DNA from: Halobellus rufus | GTDB taxonomy: Archaea; Halobacteriota; Halobacteria; Halobacteriales; Haloferacaceae | Reading direction: 5' to 3' | Length of the DNA stretch: 64,000 nt | NCBI RefSeq assembly: GCF_000739575.1 | Contig: NZ_BBJO01000003.1 | Coordinates: forward strand, 124,001-188,000 | Program-made: the position numbers and the translations under genes | Notes under the pieces: model-generated | What the model was told of the DNA's origin: nothing | The model's input: only the letters and a program-made list of their open reading frames with translations | The model's database searches: none | Shown here: positions 20,906-34,563 of the stretch, in pieces | How the letters are laid out: each line of letters starts with the position of its first letter | How positions within the stretch are numbered: the first letter of the stretch is position 1

Positions 20906-21238
20906 ATGCCGAGACCAGAGGTTCTCGAACGGATCAAAACGGCGGAATCCGAGGCCGAAGACATCGTGAAACAGGCCGAGGAGGATCGCGACGAGCGAAT
21001 CGAGGAGGCTCGACGCGAAGCCGAGGAGATCCGCGCCGACGCAGAGACCGAGGCGGACGAGTACGAGTCCGAGCGACTCGCCGAGGCCCGCGAGGAGATC
21101 GAGGCCGAGCGGGAGGAACTCATCGAGGAGGGCAAAGAAGCGCGCGAGAAGCTGGTCGCGTCCGCCGAGGAGAACGCCGACGAGGCGGTCGAATACGCGA
21201 TCAGTCAGTTCGAGGAGGCGGTACATGCTCAGACCTGA
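20906..21238 (+). CDS. atpH: A-type ATP synthase subunit H (peripheral stalk)
   Basis: This 110-residue protein is almost entirely charged coiled coil (Glu, Ala, Arg heptads from ~5 to 105), the hallmark of the H subunit that pairs with E to form the peripheral stalk. It is the first gene of the ATP synthase cluster and overlaps atpI by 14 bp. The ATG at 20906 follows the TATA box closely; earlier in-frame sequence is non-coding. Confidence 0.88.
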   Translation: MPRPEVLERIKTAESEAEDIVKQAEEDRDERIEEARREAEEIRADAETEADEYESERLAEAREEIEAEREELIEEGKEAREKLVASAEENADEAVEYAISQFEEAVHAQT

Positions 21239-27687: not shown

Positions 27688-29115
27688 ATGAAAGAGTACC
27701 AAACTATCACCGAGATCAGCGGCCCGCTGGTGTTCGCCGAGGTCGACGAGGCGATCGGGTACGACGAGATCGTCGAGATCGAGACGGCCCAAGGCGAGAC
27801 GCTGCGCGGTCAGGTGCTCGAATCCTCGGAGGGCGTCGTCGCCATCCAGGTGTTCGAGGGCACCAGCGGTATCGACCAGCACGCATCGGTTCGCTTCCTT
27901 GGCGAGACGATGAAGATGCCCGTCACCGAGGACCTCCTCGGTCGGGTCCTCGACGGTTCCGGCCGACCGATCGACGGCGGCCCGGACATCGTCCCCGAGG
28001 AGCGACAAGACATCGTCGGCGCGGCGATCAACCCCTACTCCCGGGAGTACCCCGAGGAGTTCATCGAGACCGGGGTCTCGGCCATCGACGGGATGAACAC
28101 GCTCGTCCGCGGCCAGAAGCTCCCGATCTTCTCGAGTTCGGGCCAGCCGCACAGCGAACTGGCGATGCAGATCGCCCGGCAGGCCAGCGTGCCCGAGGAG
28201 GAAGAGGGTGAAGGCGAAGGTTCGGAGTTCGCCGTCATCTTCGGCGCGATGGGGATCACGGCCGAGGAGGCCAACGAGTTCATGCAGGACTTCGAGCGCA
28301 CCGGCGCACTGGAGCGCTCCGTGGTCTTCATGAACCTCGCGGACGACCCCGCCGTCGAGCGGACGGTCACCCCGCGGATGGTCCTGACGACGGCGGAGTA
28401 CCTCGCCTTCGAGAAGGACTACCACGTGCTCGTCATCCTGACGGACATGACCAACTACTGCGAGGCGCTCCGCGAGATCGGTGCGGCTCGCGAGGAGGTC
28501 CCGGGCCGACGTGGCTACCCCGGGTACATGTACACCGACCTGGCGCAACTGTACGAGCGCGCCGGCCGGATCGAAGGGCGCGAAGGGTCGGTCACGCAGA
28601 TTCCGATTCTCACGATGCCCGGCGACGACGACACCCACCCGATCCCGGACCTGACGGGGTACATCACGGAGGGGCAGATCTACGTCGACCCCGACCTCAA
28701 CAGTCAGGGACTGCAGCCCCCGGTGAACGTCCTTCCGAGCCTGTCGCGACTGATGGACGACGGCATCGGCGAGGGGCTCACCCGTGCGGATCACGCCGAC
28801 GTCTCCGACCAGATGTACGCGGCGTACGCGGAGGGCGAGGACCTGCGCGACCTCGTGAACATCGTCGGCCGCGAGGCGCTGTCGGAGCGTGACAACAAGT
28901 ACCTCGACTTCGCCGAGCGCTTCGAGGAGGAGTTCATCGACCAGGGCTTCGACACGAACCGCGAACTCGAAGAGACGCTCGAGATCGGCTGGGAACTCCT
29001 CTCGATGCTGCCGAAGGAGGAACTCAACCGCGTCGACGAGGACTTCATCGAGGAGTACTACCACGAGGACGCGACCGACGCCGACAACACCGAAACCGAA
29101 GCGACGGCCGACTGA
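27688..29115 (+). CDS. atpB: A-type ATP synthase regulatory subunit B
   Basis: The 475-residue non-catalytic nucleotide-binding subunit shows the expected degenerate P-loop ([14 protein letters not shown] near 145-158), [19 protein letters not shown] and [14 protein letters not shown], and an acidic Thr/Glu C-terminal tail. It follows atpA by 2 bp. In typical haloarchaeal operons atpD comes next; here four bacteriorhodopsin-related genes intervene. Confidence 0.95.
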
Positions 29116-29156: not shown

Positions 29157-29162
29157 TTTTTT
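29157..29162 (+). terminator. T-run possible terminator after atpB
   Basis: Six T residues (29157-29162) in a GC-rich context 42 bp past the atpB stop fit archaeal oligo-T termination. If used, transcription from the atpH promoter would stop here, before bat. Confidence 0.35.
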
Positions 29163-29237: not shown

Positions 29238-29245
29238 GTTTTATT
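29238..29245 (+). promoter_or_regulatory. TATA box of bat
   Basis: GTTTTATT (29238-29245) lies 22-29 bp upstream of the bat ATG (29267), implying a leaderless transcript that starts independently of the ATP synthase genes. Confidence 0.5.
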
Positions 29246-29266: not shown

Positions 29267-30958
29267 ATGGCGCGAGGGGCGGAACCGAGCGAGCGGACGC
29301 CTACGACGGGGTCTCAGCCCGTCGACGAAGCGGACACGAAACTCCAGTCTGCGAGCACCGACGCCGTCGACGAGGCGCTGAAGACGCGCGCGATGGACGA
29401 AGCGCCGGTCGGAATCACCATCGCGGACGCGACGAAGCCCGATCAGCCGCTCGTGTACGCCAACGCCGCCTTCGAGCGGATCACCGGCTACCCGCCGACG
29501 TACGCGGTGGGTCGAAACTGTCGGTTTCTGCAGGGGGAAGCCACTCGCGAGAAGCCGGTCAGGCGGATGCGCGCAGCGATCGAAGAGGAGCGCGCGACGA
29601 CCGTCGTCCTCAGAAACTACCGGCGGAACGGCGAGCAGTTCTGGAACGAGGTGACGATCGCGCCGCTCCGCGATGAGTCGGGGGCAGTCGCCTACTACGT
29701 GGGATTCCAACAGGACGTCACGCGCCGCAAGCGGGCCGAGCAGGCGGCGGCGAACAGGGCCGAGCGGATCGAGCGCGAGCGGACCGCCCAGGAACGGCTC
29801 CTCGATCGGCTCGACGGGGTCGTCGCGGACGTCACCGAGTCCGTGACGCGGGCGACCTCAAGAGCCGAGTTGGAACGCGGGGTCACTCAGAGCATCGCGG
29901 ACACGTACGCGGGGGCGTGGCTCGGGACGTACGACCCGGCGAGCGAGACGGTCGTCCCGGAAGTCTGTGCCGGCGTGGTCGATCCCGACGTCGTGGGGCG
30001 TCAGTTCTCCGTGGCCGAGTCGACCGCCACCCCGGCGGCGGAAATCGAAGCCGTCGAAACCGCCGTCGCCGGCGCGCTCGACGCGCAGTACGTCCACATC
30101 GAACCGATCGAAAGGGCGGGTGTCGAGGCGTCTGCGGTCGCCGGCGTGCCGTTACACTTCGGGACGGCGACCTACGGCGCTGTCGCGGTGTACGTGGCGA
30201 CCGAGGACTTCCACACCCACGAGCGGGCCGTCTTGACCGCACTCGGTCGGACGGTCGCAACCGGCATCAACGCGATCGAGAGCCGTCGAACGCGCCACGG
30301 CGAGGAGGTTATCGAAGTCCAACTCGGAGTCGAGGCCCATCCCGTGGTAGCGCTCGCGTCCGCGTTGGACTGCCGACTGCGGTACGTCGGGACCGTCGGC
30401 GATCGCGAGGTCACGTCGCTGCTGTTCGAGGTCGGCGACGGGGACGGCCTCGACGCGGAGGCGGTGCGCGCTGCGGCCGCTCGCCGAGGGGTGACGATCC
30501 ACGCCGTACTCGCCACGGAGACGGACGTGCCGGTGGTCGAACTGTCGGTCGACGACGGCTCGTTCCGCGCGCTGCTGGCCGATCACAGCGGGGAGGTAAC
30601 CGAGTGGACTGCGGAGGCGGGCCTCGCGCGGGTGACCGTCGAGGTCGGCAGAGAGCCCCTCGCCCAGTCGTTCGCCGACACCGCGCTGGAACAGTTCGAG
30701 GCCGCGGAACTGATCGGGTACCGCCGCCGAGAGCGCCGGGCGGAGACCCAACGCGAGTTCGTCGCCGACCTCCGGTCGCGACTGACCGACCGCCAGCACG
30801 CCGCGTTAGTCCGCGCCTACACGACGGGCTACTTCGAGTGGCCCCACGAGACCAGCGGGGACGAGATCGCCGAGTCGATGGGCGTCTGTCGGTCGACGTT
30901 CCACCAGCACCTCCGCGCGGCACAGCGAAAACTCGCGGCTGCGGTGCTGGAAGGATAG
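29267..30958 (+). CDS. bat: Bat-like bacterioopsin activator with LOV-type PAS, GAF and HTH-10 domains
   Basis: This 563-residue regulator has a PAS domain (~42-160) carrying the LOV flavin signature GRNCRFLQG with C85, the cysteine that forms the light-induced adduct in LOV photoreceptors. A GAF domain follows (~170-330), then the Bat-family middle region (~340-490) and a C-terminal HTH-10 (~495-560, [20 protein letters not shown] ... [18 protein letters not shown]). It sits directly upstream of bop, as in other haloarchaea. Bat in Halobacterium activates bop and related genes under low oxygen and light; blue-light sensing by the LOV domain is inferred from the residue pattern. Confidence 0.9.
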
Positions 30959-30987
30959 CACGCCGACCGCCGCGGATCCGCGCCGTC

Positions 30988-31002
30988 CCCAACTGGTTGT
31001 GT
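30988..31002 (+). promoter_or_regulatory. Possible bop upstream activator site (reverse orientation)
   Basis: CCCAACTGGTTGTGT, centred about 49 bp upstream of the bop ATG, resembles the reverse complement of the bop UAS known from Halobacterium (ACC-n-n-actag-TT-n-GG). The spacing fits binding of a Bat-type activator just upstream of the TATA region. The TATA box itself is weak here, consistent with an activator-dependent promoter. Confidence 0.4.
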
Positions 31003-31043
31003 ACGTCGCTTACCACGTCTCCCCTCCTACGCTAAGGCGTACT

Positions 31044-31790
31044 ATGCCACAACCCGGAAGCGAAGGAATCTGGCTCTGGATCGGCACGCTCGGAATGTTC
31101 CTGGGGATGCTGTACTTCATCGCCAGGGGCTGGGGCGAAACTGACAGGCGGCGACAGGAGTTCTACATCGTCACGATATTCATCACCGCCATCGCGTTCG
31201 TGAACTACCTCGCGATGGCGCTCGGCTTCGGGCTGACGACGGTGACGGTCGCCGGCGAGGAGTTACCGATCTACTGGGCGCGATACACGGACTGGTTCTT
31301 CACCACGCCGCTGCTGCTGATCGACCTCGGCCTGCTCGCCGGGGCGAACCGGAACCAACTCGCCTCGCTGGTCGGACTGGATATGCTGATGATCGGGACC
31401 GGGGCCGTCGCGACGCTGTCTGCCGGCCCCGGGATGTTCTCCGAGGGCGCGCGCCGGCTGATCTGGTGGGGCGTCTCGACGGGGTTCCTGCTGGTGCTCC
31501 TGTATATGCTGTACGGATCCTTAGACGAGAAGGCCAGCCAGCTCTCCGGAGCCGCCGCGAGCACGTTCAGTCGGCTCCGGACGCTGATCGTCGTGGTCTG
31601 GCTGATCTATCCCGTCTGGTGGATCGTCGGCACCGAGGGACTCCGTCTCCTCCCGCTGACGATCGAGACGGCCGGATTTATGGTGTTAGACCTCGTCGCC
31701 AAGGTCGGATTCGGCATCATCCTGTTGTCGAGCCGCGAGGTGCTGGACGCCGCGGGTGCGACCGCGACCAGCGCCGAACCGGCGGACTGA
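31044..31790 (+). CDS. bop: Bacteriorhodopsin (cruxrhodopsin-like light-driven proton pump)
   Basis: The 248-residue retinal protein has seven helices. All proton-pump residues are present: R80, D83 and D94 (equivalents of R82, D85 and D96), T87-T88 next to them, E198 and E208 of the proton-release group, D216 and the Schiff-base lysine K220. The ARYTDW and [16 protein letters not shown] segments closely resemble cruxrhodopsins. The D94 proton donor and the D83 acceptor identify an outward proton pump rather than a chloride pump or sensor. It feeds proton-motive force to the ATP synthase encoded on both sides. Confidence 0.97.
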
Positions 31791-31847
31791 CGCCGTCGAG
31801 TCGTCCCGCCCGCTCGCTCCCCGTTCGGCGTTCGGAGACCCAACCCG

Positions 31848-32726
31848 ATGAGCACGCTCACGTACCTACAGTTTCACTTCGCGTTCGTCGTCCCCGCAGT
31901 GTTGCTGTTGGCCGCGACTGGGTTCGTGAGTCGGTCGCACATCCCCGAGCGGCTTCGGGCGCGGCTCACCGGATGGCGTGAGTACTGGGGCGGCGTCGCC
32001 ATCGTCACCGTCGTCGCGCTGGCGTACACGACGCCGTGGGACAACTTCCTGATCGGCCGCGGCGTCTGGTGGTACGGCGAAGCGGCGACGGTCGCGACGA
32101 TCTGGCGCGCCCCCGTCGAGGAGTACCTGTTCATCCTGGTCCAACCGCTGTTTACCGCGCTGTGGCTTGCGCACCTCTCGGTGCGCCCGTCGTGGCCGGC
32201 GGCCTCGCACCCGCGTCGGGACCGGGCGCTGGCCGTCGCGGCCGCCGTCGCGGTCGGGGCCGTCGGGTGGCGGTTGCTTGCGACCGACGCGACCTTTTAT
32301 CTCGGCGCGATCCTCGCGTGGGCCGCGCCGGTGCTGGCCCTGCAGTGGGCCGTCGGAGCCCCGCAGCTGTGGGCTCGTCGGCGAACGGTCGCGCTGGGGA
32401 CGCTCGTTCCGGCGACGTACCTGTGTCTGGCCGACCGGATCGCCATCGAGTACGGCATCTGGATCATCGCCGAGCAGTACACGACGGGCCTGACGGTTCT
32501 CGGACTCCCCGTCGAGGAGGCGACGTTCTTCCTCGTGACGAACCTCTTCGTCGTGCAGGGGCTGCTCCTGTACCGGCTGGTGATCGCGCGGTGGGACGGG
32601 GAGTCCGCATCAGACCGAGATGTCACCGATTCGACGGCGGGTCGCACAGTCGAGCGAAGCCACCGGGCGGACGTCGACACCGCCCCCGCGGATCGCCTGG
32701 CGGGGGAAGCGAACGGCGATGAGTGA
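31848..32726 (+). CDS. crtY: Lycopene beta-cyclase (fused CrtYc-CrtYd type)
   Basis: This 292-residue membrane enzyme has two lycopene-cyclase half-domains, each with the P-x-E-E motif: APVEEYLFI near residue 87 and GLPVEEATFF near 222. It converts lycopene to beta-carotene, the precursor of retinal. It lies 57 bp after bop and overlaps brp by 8 bp, so lycopene cyclisation and cleavage are translationally coupled. The tail beyond ~250 is charged and probably cytoplasmic. Confidence 0.92.
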   Translation: MSTLTYLQFHFAFVVPAVLLLAATGFVSRSHIPERLRARLTGWREYWGGVAIVTVVALAYTTPWDNFLIGRGVWWYGEAATVATIWRAPVEEYLFILVQPLFTALWLAHLSVRPSWPAASHPRRDRALAVAAAVAVGAVGWRLLATDATFYLGAILAWAAPVLALQWAVGAPQLWARRRTVALGTLVPATYLCLADRIAIEYGIWIIAEQYTTGLTVLGLPVEEATFFLVTNLFVVQGLLLYRLVIARWDGESASDRDVTDSTAGRTVERSHRADVDTAPADRLAGEANGDE

Positions 32727-33843
32727 ATCGGCAGCGGAGAGCCGATCAACTAGGGGTAGCGACGACCGGGTCCACGGCCGTCCCCCGCTGCTCCGACCGA
32801 TCGTGCTCGCCGTCGGCGGCTATCCCGCCTGGGTCGGCATCGCCTCCGTACTGGCCGTCGTCGCAATCGTCGAGGTCGGTGGCACCGGAATCGGAGCGAC
32901 GCTGCCGACGTGGGCTCGCTACCTCCCGCTCGCGGCCAGCCTCGTGCTGTTCGGGCTTCCGCACGGCGCGGTCGACCACCTCGCTCCCGCGCGGGCCGCC
33001 GGTCAGCGTCCGAGCGTCCGATGGCTGCTGAGTGTTGGGGTTGTCTACCTCGTTCTCGGCGTCGCCTACGCCGCGGTGTGGTTTCTCTCTCCGGTCGCCG
33101 CGGCCGCGGCGTTCATCGCGATGACGTGGTTCCACTGGGGGCAGGGCGACCTCTACGCGCTCGACGGCCTCGGCGCCGATCACCTCGACGACCGGCGCCT
33201 CCGATTCGGCTCGCTCGTGGTTCGCGGCGGGCTCCCGATGTTGGTTCCGCTGGTCGGTCACCCCGAAGCGTACCGGGCCGTCGTCGACTCGTGGGTGGCC
33301 CTGTTCGGCTCCTCGCTCGACGCGGCGTGGCTCGTGTCGCCGACGGTCCGCACGGGGCTCGGCGTCGGGTTCGCGCTCGTGACGGTCGGGACGCTGCTCG
33401 CGGGTCGGCGGCGCGCCGGTAGCGGGGACACGGCGTGGCGACTCGACGCCGCGGAGACGGCGCTGCTGTGGGCGTTCTTCCTCGTCGTGCCGCCGATCTT
33501 CGCGGTCGGCGTGTACTTCTGTGTGTGGCACTCGCTGCGACACATCGCTCGGCTGGTCGCCGTCGATCCGGCGTCGCGGCGGGCGTTCGACGAGCGGGGA
33601 ACCGCGGCGGCGCTGGGGCGGACCGGACTGGACGCGCTGCCGCTGACGGTCGTCGCGCTCGCCACGTTGCTCGCGGTCGGCGTGATCAGCGGAGTCGAAC
33701 CGAACACGCAGGCGGGGCAGGAGGCGGCCGCCGCGCTGTATCTGGTGTTCATCTCGGTGCTGACGCTGCCGCACGTCGCGATCGTCACCTGGATGGACTG
33801 GGTTGAGAACGCCGGTGTGGCCCGAATCCGGGGCGAACAGTAA
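32719..33843 (+). CDS. brp: Brp/Blh family beta-carotene 15,15'-dioxygenase
   Basis: The 374-residue multi-pass enzyme cleaves beta-carotene to two retinals. Conserved histidine motifs for the iron site are seen: PHGAVDH near residue 78, TWFHWGQGD near 135, CVWHSLRHIA near 272 and LPHVAIVTWMD near 353. Its ATG lies inside the end of crtY. Thus the cluster makes chromophore for the bop product. The gene ends 36 bp before atpD. Confidence 0.92.
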   Translation: MSESAAESRSTRGSDDRVHGRPPLLRPIVLAVGGYPAWVGIASVLAVVAIVEVGGTGIGATLPTWARYLPLAASLVLFGLPHGAVDHLAPARAAGQRPSVRWLLSVGVVYLVLGVAYAAVWFLSPVAAAAAFIAMTWFHWGQGDLYALDGLGADHLDDRRLRFGSLVVRGGLPMLVPLVGHPEAYRAVVDSWVALFGSSLDAAWLVSPTVRTGLGVGFALVTVGTLLAGRRRAGSGDTAWRLDAAETALLWAFFLVVPPIFAVGVYFCVWHSLRHIARLVAVDPASRRAFDERGTAAALGRTGLDALPLTVVALATLLAVGVISGVEPNTQAGQEAAAALYLVFISVLTLPHVAIVTWMDWVENAGVARIRGEQ

Positions 33844-33879
33844 AAGGTTAACAGCCTCGGTCCACTAGCCTCCTACAAG

Positions 33880-34563
33880 ATGGCCGAAGACGTCAAACCG
33901 ACTCGGAAAAATCTGATGGCGATCGAGGATCGGATCCAACTGTCCGAACGGGGCCACGACACGCTCGAACAGAAGCGTGACGGCCTCATTATGGAGTTTA
34001 TGGACATTCTGGATCAGGCCCAGGACGTCCGTTCGGAGCTCGACGAGAACTACCAGACCGCCCAGGAGAAGATCAACATGGCGCGGGCGATGGAGGGCGA
34101 CGTCGCCGTCCGCGGTGCCGCGGCGGCGCTGAAAGAGCACCCCGAGATCACCACCCAGTCGAAGAACATCATGGGCGTCGTCGTCCCGCAGATCGAGTCC
34201 TCGCGGGTGAAGAAGAGCCTCGATCAGCGCGGCTACGGCCTGCTCGGCTCCTCGGCGCGGATCGACGAGGCCGCCGACGCCTACGAGGAACTCTTGGAGA
34301 CGATCATCCTCGCCGCGGAGGTCGAGACCGCGATGAAGAAGATGCTCACGGAGATCGAGACGACCAAGCGACGCGTCAACGCCTTGGAGTTCAAGCTCCT
34401 GCCGGAACTGTACGAGAACAAGGAGTACATCGAGCAGAAGCTCGAAGAGCAGGAGCGCGAGGAGATCTTCCGACTGAAGAAGATCAAGAACAAGAAGGAA
34501 GAAGAAGAGAAGGCGGAGAAGGAAGCCGAGGAAGCGGCCGCCGCGGCCCCCGCGGACGACTGA
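33880..34563 (+). CDS. atpD: A-type ATP synthase subunit D (central stalk)
   Basis: The 227-residue protein forms the rotor shaft: two long coiled-coil helices (start ~10-75 and ~150-205) with [35 protein letters not shown] near 165 and a Lys/Glu then Ala-rich tail. It is the last ATP synthase gene, separated from atpB by 4.8 kb containing bat-bop-crtY-brp. TAAAAGGTTA at 33841-33850, overlapping the brp stop, could be a TATA box for it. Balanced expression with the rest of the operon requires either read-through or this promoter. Confidence 0.93.

Follow-up and report, generated by a model that had tools for sequence, protein, structure and literature searches.

Linkage between a bacteriorhodopsin gene and ATP synthase genes has been described in Haloarcula. 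In the part of Sharma et al. (2007; PMC1885257) that was accessible, bacteriorhodopsin together with H+-ATPase subunit genes formed a third linkage pattern, found only in Haloarcula marismortui and there in one bop copy only, with five genomes compared; the authors cited Yatsunami et al. (2000) for the same linkage in Haloarcula japonica and inferred rhodopsin loss in Haloferax. Here, we describe the atpB-atpD junction of Halobellus rufus, contained in a 64,000-nucleotide stretch of DNA (contig NZ_BBJO01000003.1, positions 124,001 to 188,000; hereafter the window). As in Haloarcula, bop lies beside atp subunit genes, between atpB and atpD, whereas, unlike the Haloarcula report, a full bat-bop-crtY-brp set fills the gap. 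The features of the locus are as follows.

27688-29115, + strand: atpB, A-type ATP synthase subunit B, 5' flank of the site (TIGR01041, PRK04196)
29157-29162, + strand: T6 run 3' of atpB, where the atp transcript may end (read in the sequence)
29239-29245, + strand: TATA-like TTTTATT 5' of bat, 22-28 bp ahead of its ATG (read in the sequence)
29267-30958, + strand: bat, activator (PF13426, PF15915, PF04967; motif GRNCRFLQ)
30988-31005, + strand: putative Bat-like upstream activator site CCCAACTGGTTGTGTACG (motif derived from relatives)
31044-31790, + strand: bop, predicted bacteriorhodopsin-type proton pump (PF01036, 225 bits)
31848-32726, + strand: crtY, lycopene cyclase (TIGR03462, 128.6 bits in two stretches; PF18916, 34.2 bits)
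32719-33843, + strand: brp, beta-carotene 15,15'-dioxygenase of the Brp/Blh family (PF15461, 260 bits; TIGR03753)
33838-33856, + strand: putative atpD promoter element CAGTAAAAGGTTAACAGCC, conserved class-wide ([AG]TTA[AT]C motif)
33880-34563, + strand: atpD, A-type ATP synthase subunit D, 3' flank of the site (PRK00373.1-1, 372 bits, cut-off 261)

The order atpB-bat-bop-crtY-brp-atpD, with every gene on the + strand and atpH, I, K, E, C, F, A and B running in that order ahead of the cassette, confirmed the original prediction, with the coordinates corrected as above. Family models (Pfam/NCBIfam) confirmed AtpI, E, C, F, B and D as well as AtpA and AtpK; AtpH (20906-21238) matched no Pfam family, and its name comes from its position. 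AtpB scored 843.1 bits against TIGR01041 (cut-off 844.65) and 796 bits against PRK04196 (cut-off 349). AtpD shared 97% identity with the Halobellus inordinatus protein, indicating a Halobellus-like genome. Bat combines LOV/PAS, GAF (21 bits, under the cut-off of 22.4), BAT and HTH_10 domains in one protein together with the LOV cysteine (motif GRNCRFLQ), and the distance from TTTTATT to bat would fit a leaderless transcript. The best PDB matches of Bop were 4pxk (bacteriorhodopsin) and 4jr8 (cruxrhodopsin-3). It belongs to the Bac_rhodopsin family and carries the Schiff-base lysine and the D85/T89/D96/E194/E204/D212 pattern of proton pumps (residues read by eye in the alignment with cruxrhodopsin-3), and the product is predicted to be a light-driven proton pump. 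The start of brp overlaps the stop of crtY, and the brp stop codon falls within the atpD promoter region, 36 bp ahead of the atpD ATG.

As in the bop regulon of Halobacterium salinarum (bat, brp, bop and crtB1, in the accessible parts of PMC1885257 and PMC3184054), Bat, Brp and bop occur in the window with a putative upstream activator site. Unlike in Halobacterium salinarum, the 85-bp gap between bat and bop leaves no room for brz, and crtY lies within the cassette. To our knowledge, the Halobacterium salinarum regulon is not located inside atp genes. In Haloquadratum walsbyi, atpD has been reported as a monocistronic unit, with units more than 200 nt apart (PMC5496347, accessible part); this species shares the separate atpD unit proposed here but has no bop at the site (L005 and L048, with gaps of 204 and 323 bp). 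The accessible portion of the main text of Becker et al. (2016; PMC4915679) does not mention the ATP synthase, and those of PMC3990103 and PMC3184054 contain nothing on bop-atp linkage. The wider pattern (three bop lineages at one site, a bat without bop there in Haloferax, and an atpD promoter type that accompanies the cassette in Halorubrum) was not found in a literature search by titles and abstract openings, which left subscription journals mostly outside its reach. The bop-ATPase linkage is known in kind, and the window holds its full-cassette form within a wider pattern that we did not find described.

We propose, with a probability of about 0.62, that two transcription units leave a permissive gap at the atpB-atpD junction, which has long been a preferred address for bacteriorhodopsin cassettes, with its occupants exchanged. 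The cassette in the window (bat-bop-crtY-brp) would encode a proton pump driven by light together with the enzymes for the final two steps of retinal synthesis, Bat would activate bop from bop's own Bat-type promoter, and atpD would retain its own conserved promoter directly behind the cassette. Protons pumped by Bop might then be used by the ATP synthase, giving a functional coupling via the proton gradient, and coupling at the DNA level would be at most an occasional read-through into atpD. The site may repeatedly have changed its occupant, lost it or kept only pieces of it, and the simplest route would be homologous recombination within the atp sequences conserved on either side. On this proposal, the patchy spread of bacteriorhodopsin would gain a physical address, at which presence, loss, replacement and relics could be read at one syntenic site, and the question of loss versus lateral transfer would become directly testable there.

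The arrangement is not very unusual. The named loci were obtained with AtpD and limited to the best 80 of 348 matches, which over-represents Haloferacaceae; 69 of these 80 were measurable (both atpB and atpD). Among the 69, atpB and atpD were directly adjacent in 29, and the interval held bop in 17, cassette remnants (bat, or crtY-brp, without bop) in 12 and other genes in 11. The earlier expectation that haloarchaeal atpD normally follows atpB directly thus holds only in part. In the class-wide sample of 391 genomes, 192 had a Bop match (E <= 1e-40); places were obtained for 140, which were the only ones used, and AtpD was searched in all of them (79 + 61). Families f5 and f11 had Bop matches but fall outside these 140 listed genomes. 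When genomes were called linked if bop preceded atpD on the same strand by at most 8 kb, 67 of the 140 were linked, representing 18 genus codes and six of seven family codes (f1, 31/47; f2, 1/1; f3, 30/59; f4, 2/28; f6, 1/1; f7, 2/3; f8, 0/1). One of the 67, G203, had 7.9 kb between bop and atpD, and four more genomes (G069, G258, G165 and G323) had bop directly after atpB with atpD elsewhere or far off. In the f3g29 loci that were mapped (5/22), bop lay between atpB and atpD, and the f3g29 bop that was queried (L101) was nearest to 4pxk and cruxrhodopsin-3, which fits the published Haloarcula pattern. Both structures are presumably of Haloarcula origin.

That a photo-energetic cassette was inserted recently into the atp operon of Halobellus, and in this lineage only, is therefore very unlikely, since the order is common across family codes and in print for Haloarcula. 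The same arrangement, entire or partial, occurred in Haloplanus, Salinigranum, Halomicrobium, Halorubellus, Halorubrum and others (where long open frames placed brp ahead of crtY, that order is not claimed), and the brp stop is already merged with the atpD promoter. In favour of such an insertion, atpB and atpD were often direct neighbours with no cassette between them (38 of the 136 measured loci), and the guanine-cytosine content of the bat-bop-crtY-brp block was 0.694, as compared with 0.661 in atpA-B and 0.674 in the window; this difference does not clearly mark a foreign block. No integrase was present among the block genes, the four of which fill the whole atpB-atpD gap, and no direct repeat pair flanked the block at the settings used; as judged by an integrase or transposase or by flanking repeats, the block is not a mobile island. 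Thus, the original prediction of a cassette insertion survives only in a deep sense and its element of surprise is lost, because the synteny comparison across haloarchaea found the order to be already common and described. An insertion confined to Halobellus is largely refuted by synteny, and a recent origin could apply at most to the copy in the window.

A neutral hotspot open to any cargo, with bacteriorhodopsin as one insert among many, was also considered. The 136 measured loci combine the named loci and those of the class-wide sample, and 12 species are present in both, so that the counts are not independent. Other genes occupied 32 of these loci, as a hotspot of this kind would have it; the commonest content was nevertheless bop or cassette remnants (66 of 136, in a sample that favours bop genomes), and we regard this explanation as unlikely. 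The other occupants included Eut, 2-oxoacid dehydrogenase, TrkA and DUF7096 proteins; nine of the 20 other-cargo proteins scanned had no Pfam match at 1e-5. Ethanolamine-utilisation and 2-oxoacid dehydrogenase genes were found in the interval of other genera (L042 and L020), and a large DUF7096 protein in that of some Halorubrum (L028 and L038), with or without the bop cassette. The L038 protein had a weak Fn3-like match, as did a 1,028-aa protein in the interval of Halobellus rarus (L013).

Cassette remnants were found at 15 of the 136 loci. Only bat was retained between atpB and atpD in all eight Haloferax genomes examined, in G076, and in L033 and L060; crtY-brp without bop remained in Haloplanus ruber and Halobellus rarus, and brp alone in two f3g44 loci (one of the two Pfam-checked). 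A tblastn search for bop in Halobellus rarus returned only a short fragment of 38 residues. The Bats of Haloferax and G076 were nested within lineage III Bats (100*) and retained the LOV cysteine. The nine loci with such a LOV-Bat and no bop at the site (eight Haloferax and one related) are L043, L047, L050, L052, L053, L054, L063, L067 and L122. In Haloferax, the LOV-Bat may be a leftover that has perhaps taken on another function.

The occupants of this address did not form one lineage. In a tree of 89 bop proteins from part of the listed genomes, drawn with a midpoint root, linked bops were found in all three large groups: group I (the window, Halorubrum, g13, f6, f3g66 and f3g70), group II (f3g29, f3g39, f3g50, G180, G127 and G239) and group III (g10, g11, g16, g19, g23, f7g34 and G203). 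Monophyly of all linked bops was rejected (approximately unbiased test, p-AU 4.9e-5), as was monophyly of the linked bops from the window's family (p-AU 6.7e-5). The linked label required nine changes on the bop tree, seven of them forced by starred branches (29.5 in shuffles). On the tree of AtpA, AtpB and AtpD (81 genomes, 40 occupied sites), the lineage at the occupied sites required at least six switches (shuffles: mean 19.5, lowest 15), two of them within the window's family. Family f1 formed one group on this tree (98*), and its sites held lineage I in ten genomes, lineage III in nine and none in ten, which requires at least two switches.

These trees bear on strict vertical inheritance of an ancestral cassette, in which ancient paralogous bops and differential loss would produce the mixed lineages. 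Such a history accords with the wide spread, the remnants, and the local agreement of the bop and atp trees within genera, which suggests vertical descent between exchange events. However, none of the 67 linked genomes had more than one listed bop in the 8 kb ahead of atpD, and families f1, f3 and f4 each had two bop lineages at the site. The clearest case of transfer is probably G203: its AtpB and AtpD fragments grouped with its own genus g27, and the 3' part of its atpB was 93-94% identical to two g27 genomes as compared with 89-90% to f7g34, but its bop at the atp site was nested among f7g34 bops. A tree uniting the G203 bop and the remaining f4 bops, with G239 excluded, was rejected (p-AU 2.3e-46). 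Accordingly, we consider strict vertical inheritance improbable as the whole explanation.

The proposal of a permissive gap also draws on promoter patterns. A motif, CCNAACTAGTTNGGTA, was located about 50-65 bp before many bop genes of groups I-III. It resembles the Bat activator site of Halobacterium. With up to four mismatches, this Bat-like motif was present at -70 to -45 in 52 of 93 distinct bop upstream regions, and at the same position in none of 149 atpD, 63 crtY and 13 bat upstream regions; anywhere within 200 bp, the respective counts were 1/149, 7/63 and 0/13. Among bops in the tree set, it was found in 28 of 39 linked, 16 of 45 unlinked and none of 15 in family f4. In the window, a scan allowing three mismatches detected it only at bop (two overlapping matches, 0.13 expected), where it had no mismatch. 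Genome-wide, there were one exact and 11 two-mismatch places, compared with three in the control reading; one two-mismatch copy lies at G000:C36:893-908. In contrast to the Bat-like motif, [AG]TTA[AT]C was present at -48 to -22 of atpD in 124 of 149 distinct upstream regions (control at -160 to -134, 0/161), and this element was conserved whether atpB, bop or other genes preceded it. Runs of five or more T within 120 bp after atpB occurred in 18 of 41 cassette, 9 of 34 empty and 10 of 48 other loci, and in none of 123 loci in a control within the 3' end of atpB. A sigma-70 scan was not applicable to archaea; a terminator pattern gave five matches (1.5 expected), all inside crtY and brp, and was not used.

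As judged from sequence, the cassette seems to separate two transcription units, because atpD has its own element, bop has a Bat-like motif and T-runs follow atpB. These patterns back the earlier suggestion that the block and atpD have separate promoters, and the T-run at 29157-29162 to which it pointed is present in the sequence. The accompanying idea of shared regulation fared differently: a Bat site common to bop and atpD is not supported by the motif scans. An explanation in which the location was selected for co-regulation of the light pump and the ATP synthase, through shared Bat control or required read-through, is thus quite unlikely, given also the conservation of the atpD element with or without the cassette and the T-runs after atpB. 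Several features are in its favour. The 36 bp between the brp stop and the atpD ATG contain no T-run and offer little room for a terminator, so that read-through from brp into atpD is structurally plausible, and an intact Bat with the LOV cysteine is retained at the site in Haloferax. The shared strand is no evidence for co-regulation, since the linkage rule demanded it.

Comparison of 30 Halorubrum loci revealed two alternative atpD promoter types in the last 50 bp before atpD (e.g., L022 and L024), one of which, type C, was defined as CA[AG]TAAA..GTTAACAGGCTC. All eight loci with the cassette or a bat remnant had type C, whereas of the 22 loci without either, 20 had type E, one type C (L040) and one neither (L058). 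Cassette state and promoter type were associated (Fisher's test, 2.1e-6, with L058 excluded and relatedness uncorrected). Cassette state was scattered on the Halorubrum atpC-A-B tree, with six changes for full versus the rest (7.9 in shuffles, 36 of 500 as low). A supposed brp scar before the Halorubrum atpD promoter was dropped, as only about three residues agree and the Haloferax promoter is similar. The Halorubrum pattern is compatible with exchange of the interval together with its promoter. It is possible, although less likely than not, that the interval is an exchange locus with two kinds of allele, each with its own atpD promoter. One would confer phototrophy and carry all or some of bat-bop-crtY-brp; the other would be empty or hold other cargo. 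Homologous recombination would swap the whole interval, so that phototrophy would be gained or lost with it, the dose of ATP synthase subunit D might shift with the light pump, and the Haloferax LOV-Bat may serve atpD or another target.

Several observations weigh against the proposal of a permissive, exchanged address. By the linkage rule, 73 of the 140 listed bop genomes were unlinked, including 26 of 28 in f4, and 11 of 39 linked bops lacked a Bat-like site at the score used. The Bat and bop trees were not fully congruent. In Halorubrum, only three independent contrasts were available on starred branches, all in the same direction (p 0.25), and no exchange tract was found, the maximum r2 between atpB/atpD coding variation and promoter type being 0.26. 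No repeat pair was found at the borders, so that exchange through flank homology is an interpretation, and the age of the site is likewise one, in which "ancestral" would be the simple reading of trees without inferred root states.

Other genes potentially related to retinal proteins and carotenoids were found elsewhere in the genome. Two genes belong to the phytoene-synthase family, and a second lycopene-cyclase-like domain (G000:C76:18615-18869; L229) scored 26.4 bits, just under the Pfam cut-off of 27. A second rhodopsin (G000:C79:55649-56317; L214), located approximately 100 kb upstream of bop, was nearest to the halorhodopsin structures 5ahy and 1e12.

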